Of a stretch of 64,000 nucleotides of DNA, positions 34,661-62,943 are shown in pieces. Made by a program: the position numbers and the translations under genes. This DNA comes from Aneurinibacillus thermoaerophilus (lineage in GTDB: Bacteria; Bacillota; Bacilli; Aneurinibacillales; Aneurinibacillaceae): the NCBI RefSeq assembly GCF_900099925.1, contig NZ_FNDE01000014.1, forward strand, positions 1-64,000. Direction: 5' to 3'. The notes under the pieces were generated by a model. The model was given only the letters and a program-made list of their open reading frames with translations, did no database searches and was not told the origin of the DNA. Positions within the stretch are counted from its first letter, which is position 1. Each line of letters opens with the position of its first letter.

Positions 34661-34812
34661 TTTCTTATCCAGAGAGATGGAGGGACTGGCCCAATGAAAT
34701 CTCGGCAACCTAATTCGGTTAGGTGCCAATTCCAGAAAGCACACGCTTGAAGATGAGGAAGAGGGGATCGTAGAATATAAGCCCTTCTTCTTTAATGAAG
34801 TAGGGCTTTTTT
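34661..34812 (+). promoter_or_regulatory. SAM-I (S-box) riboswitch with terminator, sulfate operon
   Basis: The aptamer (34661-34760) has the conserved S-box core: CTTATCCAGAGAGATGGAGGG, quoted in part, then ACTGGCCCAATGAAATCTCGG, CAACC...GGTGCCAATTCC and AGAAAGC. P1 closes with GATGAG (34752-34757). A terminator hairpin (AGCCCTTCTTC with GAAGTAGGGCT, 34780-34807) and T-run follow. High SAM would stabilise the aptamer and allow termination, so the downstream sulfate assimilation genes are expressed when methionine/SAM is low. Confidence 0.96.
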
Positions 34813-51718: not shown

Positions 51719-52951
51719 CTATGAATCGGTTCCAGGTTCTTGGGTGGCAACTGGCAAACGGTATAGCGGCAGGATAAAAAGCAGACCGACGATAAATAGA
51801 ATTCCTGCCATTTCATACATCGCAACAAGGGAAAATAAATTTTTAAGCAGGCCCGCTATGCTCATCGTAATGACCATTGCCCCGGTGAACAACGGACTGA
51901 GAATACCGTTAACCCGACCTATATATTGACTTTCCGTATTTTGCAAGATCATCGTGTTGATTCCTATTTGAATGCAAGGGAGCACTAAACCGCTGAAAAA
52001 CTGTGCAGTTAATGTTAACCACGGAGTCGTTGATATACCGGATATGGCCATGCAGATCGCGTCGACAAACATGCCGAATGCTAGCAGTTTTTGTGGTGCG
52101 ACCGATTTAGCGAAAACCATAGCCAATCCGCCGCCTAGAACCATGCCGATCCCGCTGACGGTCATTAACCATTGCAAATATTCTTTTTCTAGACCGAGTC
52201 GTTCTGTAACTAGAAAAACGCCGAGCGGCTGGATAAGGCCAATCGCCAAACCGGCGGCGAAGAAACAGGCTCCGAGCAGCGTTAGTACTTTTTTCGACAG
52301 CACATAACGAATCCCGGCAGCCATCTCTTGAAGGAGCGTTGAATGAGTCTCTTCTTTACCCATATCGCGATCCGGCGGAAGAAAAAACAATGCAACGGCC
52401 GACATGAGGAAAGCTATCCCCGTTATCATAATCGCAACTTGAATACCAAAGGTTTGATAAACGAACGTTCCAAGAACTGGGCCAAAAATCATGAATACAG
52501 CGAAGATCGTTTGATAAATCGACATCCCAGCTTGCACCTGTTCGGCCGGAACGTGCATTTTAAATAGCTTTAACCCGGCTGGCTGTGAGAATTGAGACAA
52601 GATCGCCGAGAACAGTATGGAAAAAAACACAGCCTTCCACGAACCAAAAATCAATGTAAATAGAACGGCGAATACTGATATGGCGCTCAATACATCGCAC
52701 CAGATCATTGTTCGCTTGGGGGGCCAACGGTCGGCAAAGGTTCCCCCGATAAACGAGAAAATAAAAATCGGCGCAAATTCAGCGACCGAAACCATTGAAA
52801 CTGCGAATGCATCCCCTCCTGTCATTTCCACTACATACAGCAGCACGGAGAAATTACGTACCCAGATGCCAATTTGGAGAAAAAGTTCAGATAATAGGAT
52901 CGCTTGCACAAAACGATTGCGAAATAGGTTGGCCATGGATGGTGAAGACAA
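51719..52951 (-). CDS. MFS efflux protein (macrolide-exporter-like)
   Basis: The 410-residue protein has twelve membrane segments of the MFS-3/Mef-type group: FADRWPPKRTMIWCDVLSA is the loop 2-3 signature, and residues 150-170 and 300-330 fit the usual symmetry. Such pumps export macrolides or siderophores. The TTG at 52951 is preferred because GGAAGG lies 7 bases upstream; ATG at 52993, next to the leader-peptide stop, would allow translational coupling and is an alternative. A large structured leader with an attenuator lies upstream. The substrate is unproven. Confidence 0.85.
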   Translation of the reverse strand: MSSPSMANLFRNRFVQAILLSELFLQIGIWVRNFSVLLYVVEMTGGDAFAVSMVSVAEFAPIFIFSFIGGTFADRWPPKRTMIWCDVLSAISVFAVLFTLIFGSWKAVFFSILFSAILSQFSQPAGLKLFKMHVPAEQVQAGMSIYQTIFAVFMIFGPVLGTFVYQTFGIQVAIMITGIAFLMSAVALFFLPPDRDMGKEETHSTLLQEMAAGIRYVLSKKVLTLLGACFFAAGLAIGLIQPLGVFLVTERLGLEKEYLQWLMTVSGIGMVLGGGLAMVFAKSVAPQKLLAFGMFVDAICMAISGISTTPWLTLTAQFFSGLVLPCIQIGINTMILQNTESQYIGRVNGILSPLFTGAMVITMSIAGLLKNLFSLVAMYEMAGILFIVGLLFILPLYRLPVATQEPGTDS

Positions 52952-52997
52952 TATGGTTTCCTTCCTTCCGTTTATTTTTATTTCATATTTCATCACT

Positions 52998-53132
52998 TTA
53001 ATTTCCAAATATAAGCATAAAAAACCTCCTTATCCACTTTTCTGGATAGGAGGCAGAACAGTAACAAAAAGATACAGTACAGTACTTTTCGACTGATGCT
53101 ATTAAATGGGTATTTTGTATATAAAAATTCAT
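52998..53132 (-). CDS. Leader reading frame of 44 codons in the MFS transcript
   Basis: An open frame of 44 codons starts at the ATG at 53132 (partial ribosome site AGGA, 5 bases upstream), runs through the terminator hairpin and stops (53000-52998) just before a GTGATG in the coding start of the MFS gene. The peptide is MNFYIQNTHLIASVEKYC, continuing SFCYCSASYPEKWIRR. Its start signal overlaps segment 2 of the attenuator. It looks like a leader peptide, not a functional protein. Confidence 0.4.
   Translation of the reverse strand: MNFYIQNTHLIASVEKYCTVSFCYCSASYPEKWIRRFFMLIFGN
53025..53053 (-). terminator. Terminator hairpin (segments 3:4) in the MFS leader
   Basis: On the minus strand CCTCCTATCCA (53043-53053) pairs with TGGATAAGGAGG (53025-53036; one bulged A) around GAAAAG, followed by six T (53019-53024). 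The 3' arm also contains AAGGAGG, a perfect ribosome site, 6 bases before an ATG. Confidence 0.85.
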
Positions 53133-53133
53133 A

Positions 53134-53195
53134 CTAATCCTATCCAAGAAAAGTTTTTGTGCTTAAATGATGAATGTTTTTAAGGATAAGATTAG
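53134..53195 (-). promoter_or_regulatory. Attenuator segments 1 and 2 in the MFS leader
   Basis: Segment 1 (53184-53195, CTAATCTTATCC) pairs with segment 2 (53134-53145) over 12 bases with one wobble. Segment 2 (TGGATAGGATTAG) can instead pair with segment 3 (TCCTATCCA, 9 bases, perfect), which would break the 3:4 terminator. The tiny frame ending in ATG ATC AAC TAA (53203-53192) stops inside segment 1. Confidence 0.75.
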
Positions 53196-53240
53196 TTGAT
53201 CATTGGTTTAAAAGTCACCCTTCCATTAAATATCAATTTG

Positions 53241-53269
53241 ATACTACACTATTACATAAATTAAATCAA
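53241..53269 (-). promoter_or_regulatory. Promoter of the MFS transcript
   Basis: On the minus strand TTGATT (-35) and TAGTAT (-10) are separated by 17 bases. Transcription would start near 53234, giving a leader of about 280 bases. Confidence 0.65.
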
Positions 53270-62824: not shown

Positions 62825-62943
62825 ATCTTATCTTTCAGAATGAAACGGTTCATCCTGCAGGAATTAGCACCTTGCTTTTTTCAACGTAAAAGCAGGTTGC
62901 CGGGCTTCATTGGGCCAGTCCCTCAGCCTTCTCGTGATAAGAT
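62825..62943 (-). promoter_or_regulatory. SAM-I (S-box) riboswitch of the methionine salvage operon
   Basis: The aptamer reads on the minus strand TCTTATCACGAGAAGGCTGA, then GGGACTGGCCCAATGAAGCC, CGGCAACCTGC, GGTGCTAATTCCTGCAGGA and closes with GATAAGA (P1, 62826-62832 with 62936-62942). The terminator hairpin at 62771-62795 follows. High SAM should stop mtnWXBD transcription. Confidence 0.96.

Follow-up and report, generated by a model that had tools for sequence, protein, structure and literature searches.

Genomic context and architecture of the leader

Within the window (the whole stretch of 64,000 nucleotides of Aneurinibacillus thermoaerophilus DNA that was analysed), the minus strand bears a gene for a DHA3-like MFS efflux transporter and, ahead of it, a leader with a promoter, a three-codon uORF and four complementary segments, closed by the U-run of an intrinsic terminator (Table 1). 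The promoter, the segments and the run of six T that had been described in the original prediction are all present in the minus-strand sequence, together with the small frame ATG ATC AAC TAA, whose stop codon falls inside segment 1, and with each of the three pairings that had been claimed. Segments 1 and 2 pair over 12 bp including one G-U, segments 3 and 4 pair with one bulge, and segments 2 and 3 form a perfect helix of 9 bp (TGGATAGGA/TCCTATCCA). Segment 2 plays a double role, as the 3' arm of the anti-antiterminator and the 5' arm of the antiterminator, and segment 4 holds an AGGAGG positioned as Shine-Dalgarno (SD) sequence for the next start codon. A simple promoter and terminator scan of the window listed neither the leader promoter nor the leader terminator, because the former scores only 8/12 and the stem of the latter is bulged.

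Table 1. Features of the MFS gene, its leader and the two riboswitches found in the window.
Feature	Positions	Strand	Evidence or remarks
Promoter	53241-53269	-	TTGATT 53269-53264, 17-base spacer, TAGTAT 53246-53241; expected transcript start ~53234
Extended Shine-Dalgarno block of the uORF, GGAAGGGTGACT	53213-53224	-	Near-invariant GGAAGGGTGACC in 43 leaders
Three-codon uORF ATG ATC AAC TAA (Met-Ile-Asn)	53192-53203	-	ATG-X-X-TAA/TAG pattern across aligned leaders
Segment 1, CTAATCTTATCC, 5' arm of the anti-antiterminator	53184-53195	-	Covaries with segment 2
Segment 2, GGATAGGATTAG	53145-53134 (listed extent to 53146)	-	Covaries with segments 1 and 3
Middle hairpin, at the position of the vmlR pause hairpin SL-2	53058-53095	-	Folding z
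Segment 3, CCTCCTATCCA, 3' arm of the antiterminator and 5' arm of the terminator	53043-53053	-	Sequence and covariation
Segment 4, TGGATAAGGAGG, 3' arm of the terminator	53025-53036	-	Sequence and covariation
U-run of the intrinsic terminator, TTTTTT	53019-53024	-	Sequence; conserved in relatives
Six-codon frame MLIFGN, after the terminator	52998-53018	-	VLIFK-like frames in L002 and L003
MFS (DHA3-like) efflux transporter, most likely start TTG 52951	51719-52951	-	Pfam MFS_1 3.5e-34
SAM (S-box) riboswitch	62825-62943	-	Above Rfam gathering score
SAM (S-box) riboswitch	34662-34759	+	Above Rfam gathering score

The transporter is distantly similar to Mef(A), and its homologues, at 55–86% identity across the Bacilli, have as named hosts Brevibacillus, Paenibacillus, Desulfosporosinus, Desulfotruncus and relatives of Bacillus. 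In a search of NCBIfam no model reached its cut-off with this product (TIGR00900 gave 5.9e-48, below the cut-off of that model), kinship with the DHA3/Mef branch lying far below, and a sequence search for a solved structure that could hint at the substrate of the pump found no relative. The alignment with L002 and L003 makes the conserved TTG the most likely start of the gene. The MLIFGN frame occupies the place at which the MFS gene begins in other genera and is possibly a remnant of translational coupling; in the window the MFS gene follows about 50 nt later, with an SD of its own. In many relatives the GGAGG of the terminator 3' arm is placed as the SD of an MFS start right after the U-run, so that the hairpin could act there as a second, translational block.

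Conservation and covariation in relatives

The same leader was found above 43 distinct aligned loci of MFS homologues, from Bacilli and some Clostridia and spread over many families of Bacillota, and many homologous MFS genes have no such leader. The set was taken from the regions upstream of MFS homologues and most members were picked by the ATG-X-X-stop pattern, so that its presence in all 43 is partly by construction. The constant parts are, in order, GGAAGGGTGACC, an ATG-X-X-TAA/TAG directly joined to CTAATCCTAT, followed by TTCTGGATAGGATTAG, and finally CCTCCTGTCCAGA...GGATAAGGAGG-T(n). All three mutually exclusive helices covary across these 43 leaders. The anti-antiterminator and the terminator taken together are 93.2% paired with eight pairs doubly changed, a value equalled by none of 500 shuffles and compared with 32–54% in slid controls; separately, 93.7% of the cells are paired in the anti-antiterminator (three pairs with double changes) and 92.5% in the terminator (five). 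For the antiterminator the figure is 93.7%, with six doubly changed pairs, at most one of 500 shuffles as high and 33–51% in slid controls. In the group around L066, a single base change in segment 2 has its counterpart, in the alignment, in each of its two partners, segments 1 and 3. The Peribacillus group has TCCAGA in the loop of the terminator and yet keeps it, as expected if this stretch serves the antiterminator. The four-segment attenuator is real, far beyond chance, and what settles this is its conservation across the 43 leaders.

The uORF shows an informative pattern. Its ATG and stop codon are fixed across the 43 leaders while the two codons between them vary, codon 2 being I in 30, N in 5, R in 3, S and K in 2 each and Q in 1, and codon 3 being N in 15, Y in 12, I in 8, L in 4 and F and H in 2 each. 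ATG-X-X-stop also occurs in most of the matches to the covariance model described below that were left out of model building. A longer peptide, MTFKPMIN, from a GTG at 53218 had been put forward as possible, but this start was rejected, since relatives break the frame (e.g., GTG ACC TTT ACA CGA TGA in L002) and keep ATG-X-X-stop; the GGTGAC at this site is part of the conserved extended Shine-Dalgarno block. Judged from the alignment, the uORF is to be read as Met-Ile-Asn only. As for the promoter, its hexamers score barely above shuffles (8.46 vs 8.09), and a better argument is the recurrence in most relatives of TTGAnn-17-TAnnnT at a fixed spacing, some 17–19 nt before the SD of the uORF.

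The leader family is rare outside the Bacilli: a sample of 398 genomes from the phylum gave hits in 11, of which 4 lie outside this class. Five leaders with the uORF MIN or Met-Arg-Tyr (L067, L095, L096, L102, and L105) come from Desulfotruncus and Desulfosporosinus, also outside the Bacilli, which suggests old spread or horizontal transfer. Plasmid pBM500 of the laboratory strain Priestia megaterium QM B1551 carries the same leader (L247:2250-2465), with the uORF MIN and an MFS gene 70% identical, and the same MFS family is found on 12 P. megaterium plasmids. A genome of the same genus as that of the window has a degenerate second leader that lacks the uORF and is found immediately past the 3' end of the MFS gene (L191, G005:C4:3500095-3500270, minus strand).

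Predicted folding

The window leader is more stable than shuffled sequences (z -3.36, with 1 of 200 shuffles equally good), and the predicted energies of its helices are -18.4 kcal/mol for 1:2, -15.9 for 2:3 and -17.8 for the terminator. Folding of the leader in the two states proposed for it gave the expected switch in the nascent RNA, i.e., before segment 4 is synthesised: with the RNA free, 1:2 forms, and when a footprint the size of a ribosome is masked at the uORF this helix is replaced by 2:3. At full length the terminator is still favoured at equilibrium with the ribosome masked on the AUG, and the antiterminator wins when it is masked one codon further. The switch would depend, from these outcomes, either on the co-transcriptional order of folding or on a ribosome that stalls at the codon after the AUG. 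The middle hairpin has a mean folding z of -2.1 over the 43 leaders and is weak in the window itself (-0.4).

Kinship with leaders of resistance genes

The window leader gave a full-length match to the Rfam family RF02452 (ncr1575), with 33.3 bits (E 0.0025), and the MFS leader L004 reached 50.5 bits. The gathering score of ncr1575 is 60 bits, and we did not file the window leader under this family because it falls below the curated cut-off, although it is clearly related. The strongest matches of ncr1575 are leaders of VmlR/Lsa ABC-F genes, among them that of a VmlR orthologue (a relative of PDB 6ha8), and one leader of a lincosamide nucleotidyltransferase gene. In the other direction, a covariance model built from MFS leaders only (R1) finds leaders of ABC-F genes of the VmlR, Vga and Lsa types and of Vat, Vgb, TetA-like and LmrB-like genes, with scores of 68.9 bits (E 2.5e-12) for an ABC-F leader (G006:C1:2025902), 144.7 bits for a Vat leader (L151) and 131.9 bits for a Vgb leader (L163). 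We examined 108 matches to R1: 33 stand before genes of this MFS family (the training set included some of these), 44 before ABC-F, four before Vat, five before Vgb, two before TetA-like and two before LmrB-like genes, and 18 are unclassified; these downstream classes rest on short motifs, with representatives checked against NCBIfam and three assigned by reading (L180, L182, and L229, the first confirmed with NCBIfam).

The genome of the window has a second leader of this kind (L246, G000:C93:3078-3302, minus strand), with the uORF Met-Lys-Tyr, before an ABC-F gene of the Vga family (828 bits in NCBIfam, over the cut-off). Other leaders of the family stand before genes that are not known to confer resistance, namely a PHA-depolymerase-like hydrolase (L186) and, identified by eye only, a DHFR-like reductase (L188), an SDR enzyme (L168) and an AraC-like-looking frame (L210).

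We lean towards the view that one homologous RNA module, the attenuator with the uORF Met-X-X-stop, serves throughout the Bacillota as a plug-in sensor of general use for antibiotics that block the PTC, common to otherwise unrelated genes (ABC-F, Vat, Vgb, Lnu, and TetA-like, LmrB-like and DHA3-like MFS genes). If so, it would also mark resistance genes so far unrecognised (this pump, the hydrolase, the reductase and the SDR enzyme) and the leader could be used to discover new inducible ones. A single covariance model that recovers at least six resistance classes would likewise provide a gene-independent route to inducible intrinsic resistance in soil Bacillota. In the open-access literature searched, this RNA was not found ahead of MFS, Vat or Vgb genes, and the publications found treat ABC-F cases singly. 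What may be new here is the MFS target and one RNA module common to at least six classes of resistance genes, the mechanism being already known.

Proposed mechanism and alternative explanations

The conserved three-codon uORF, the covarying exclusive helices and the cross-match to leaders of resistance genes strongly support an attenuator before the MFS efflux gene that works by ribosome stalling, like those of vmlR and lmo0919, and we estimate at about 88% the probability that the leader is a vmlR/rli53-type transcription attenuator, with a three-codon uORF before a drug transporter and read-through when a PTC drug stalls the ribosome. The original prediction had proposed antibiotic-induced attenuation by analogy with vmlR, lmo0919 and Erm/Mef-type leaders; the comparative evidence supports the first two models, and the uORF is too short for the third. 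Sequence and comparison show the uORF with its SD, the three covarying helices that exclude one another, the terminator and the kinship with leaders of known resistance genes; we infer the stalling and read-through set out here and the inducers and substrates named below. In the absence of drug the ribosome would translate Met-Ile-Asn and depart, the 1:2 anti-antiterminator and the 3:4 terminator would form, and transcription would end near 53019. A drug blocking the PTC just after initiation would park the ribosome on the uORF and cover segment 1, upon which segment 2 could capture segment 3, the terminator could not form and RNA polymerase would continue into the pump gene. Production of the pump is probably confined to conditions in which ribosomes are stalled by certain antibiotics, which predicts that it should be silent in standard tests and appear only under the drugs considered next.

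Pleuromutilins, lincosamides and streptogramin A (PLSA) are PTC drugs that act at or just after initiation. They are the likely inducers, considering the tripeptide uORF and the genes that related leaders precede; a phenicol or a nucleoside would be possible further ones. The substrates of the pump are probably among the same PLSA drugs, judging by association only. Macrolides stall ribosomes on nascent chains of greater length; a peptide of three residues cannot fill the exit tunnel, so that no nascent-chain-dependent macrolide stall like that of Erm/Mef leaders is to be expected; macrolides, like tetracycline, are unlikely inducers. This bears directly on the idea of a macrolide/ketolide attenuator resembling those of Erm, Mef or MsrD, in which MTFKPMIN would be stalled through its nascent chain and the drug. 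The in-frame GTG of the window and the distant similarity of the transporter to Mef(A) are compatible with it, but the frame broken in relatives, the place of the GGTGAC within the SD block, the conservation of the tripeptide alone and the lack of an RLR-like motif leave this explanation a very slim chance.

A broader sensor of translation stress could be built from the same parts, with a uORF that registers every slowing of initiation or elongation, whether by drugs of many classes, by cold or by faulty ribosome assembly, and a pump that is not PLSA-specific. The leaders found before TetA-like and LmrB-like MFS genes and before genes with no known resistance role fit such a broad response, as do two regulated systems in the literature: vmlR, for which defects in ribosome assembly are reported as a further inducing condition (PMC9226507), and Rli59 of Listeria, which responds to several translation inhibitors (PMC8079631). 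We regard it nevertheless as quite improbable, given that most of the recognisable partner genes (Vga/VmlR/Lsa ABC-F, Vat, and Lnu) act on PLSA drugs and that vmlR is efficiently induced only by its cognate drugs (PMC9226507). Riboswitches, too, are built on two folds that exclude each other, and a metabolite riboswitch or an amino-acid attenuator would turn the small frame into a fortuitous one. An amino-acid attenuator was rejected on account of the variable codons 2 and 3, which leave no single amino acid to be sensed while the ATG and the stop are kept. No Rfam riboswitch matches the leader region, the only two in the window being of the SAM type and located elsewhere (Table 1), and the first hairpin has a loop with little conservation in the alignment of 43 leaders; these readings are barely credible next to a stalling attenuator of the vmlR/rli53 type.

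Comparison with known attenuators

The leaders of bmrCD/bmrB, hflXr/rli80, ErmC and MsrD share with the mechanism proposed for the window leader an antibiotic-stalled ribosome on a leader frame and alternative RNA structures, but they differ in having longer leader peptides and drug-specific elongation stalls (e.g., ErmCL); that of rli80 has 14 amino acids with an RLR motif (PMC6310831). Tripeptide uORFs are closer to the case described here. The uORF of cplR is MRI and that of vmlR2 MK[L/Q], and in cplR the SD of the main gene is also tied up in the terminator stem (PMC10201436), an arrangement that many relatives of the window leader share, although the targets are ABC-F genes and the peptides are others; the MKY leader L246 resembles the vmlR2 kind. 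In rli53 of Listeria monocytogenes, a three-amino-acid ORF overlaps the anti-antiterminator and lincomycin-stalled ribosomes prevent termination (Dar et al., 2016, via PMC8079631). By this described architecture the window leader is like rli53/lmo0919 (VgaL), whose target is, in contrast, an ABC-F gene.

In the attenuator of Bacillus subtilis vmlR the uORF Met-Ile-Asn lies within an anti-antiterminator, an antiterminator and a terminator complete the set, and both the start codon and the SD of the uORF are required for induction by lincomycin (PMC9226507). The window leader has the identical tripeptide behind a strong SD, an anti-antiterminator that takes in the last codon of the uORF, an exclusive antiterminator, a terminator and, at the place of SL-2, the middle hairpin that is weak in the window itself, and the stretch CAATGAT[T/C]AACTAATCTTAT is nearly identical between it and the leader of a VmlR orthologue (L031). 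It differs from vmlR in the segment sequences of its 3' half, in having no separate SL-4, in a terminator arm that itself bears the downstream SD and in lacking the NusG motif TTNTTT, which belongs with SL-2 to the NusG-dependent pause of vmlR and is present in 18 of the 43 leaders. It also differs from vmlR in its target, an MFS gene and not an ABC-F one, and the tripeptide attenuator known from vmlR would in this way reach beyond the ribosome-protection genes of the ABC-F class, to an MFS pump family that is large and uncharacterised.
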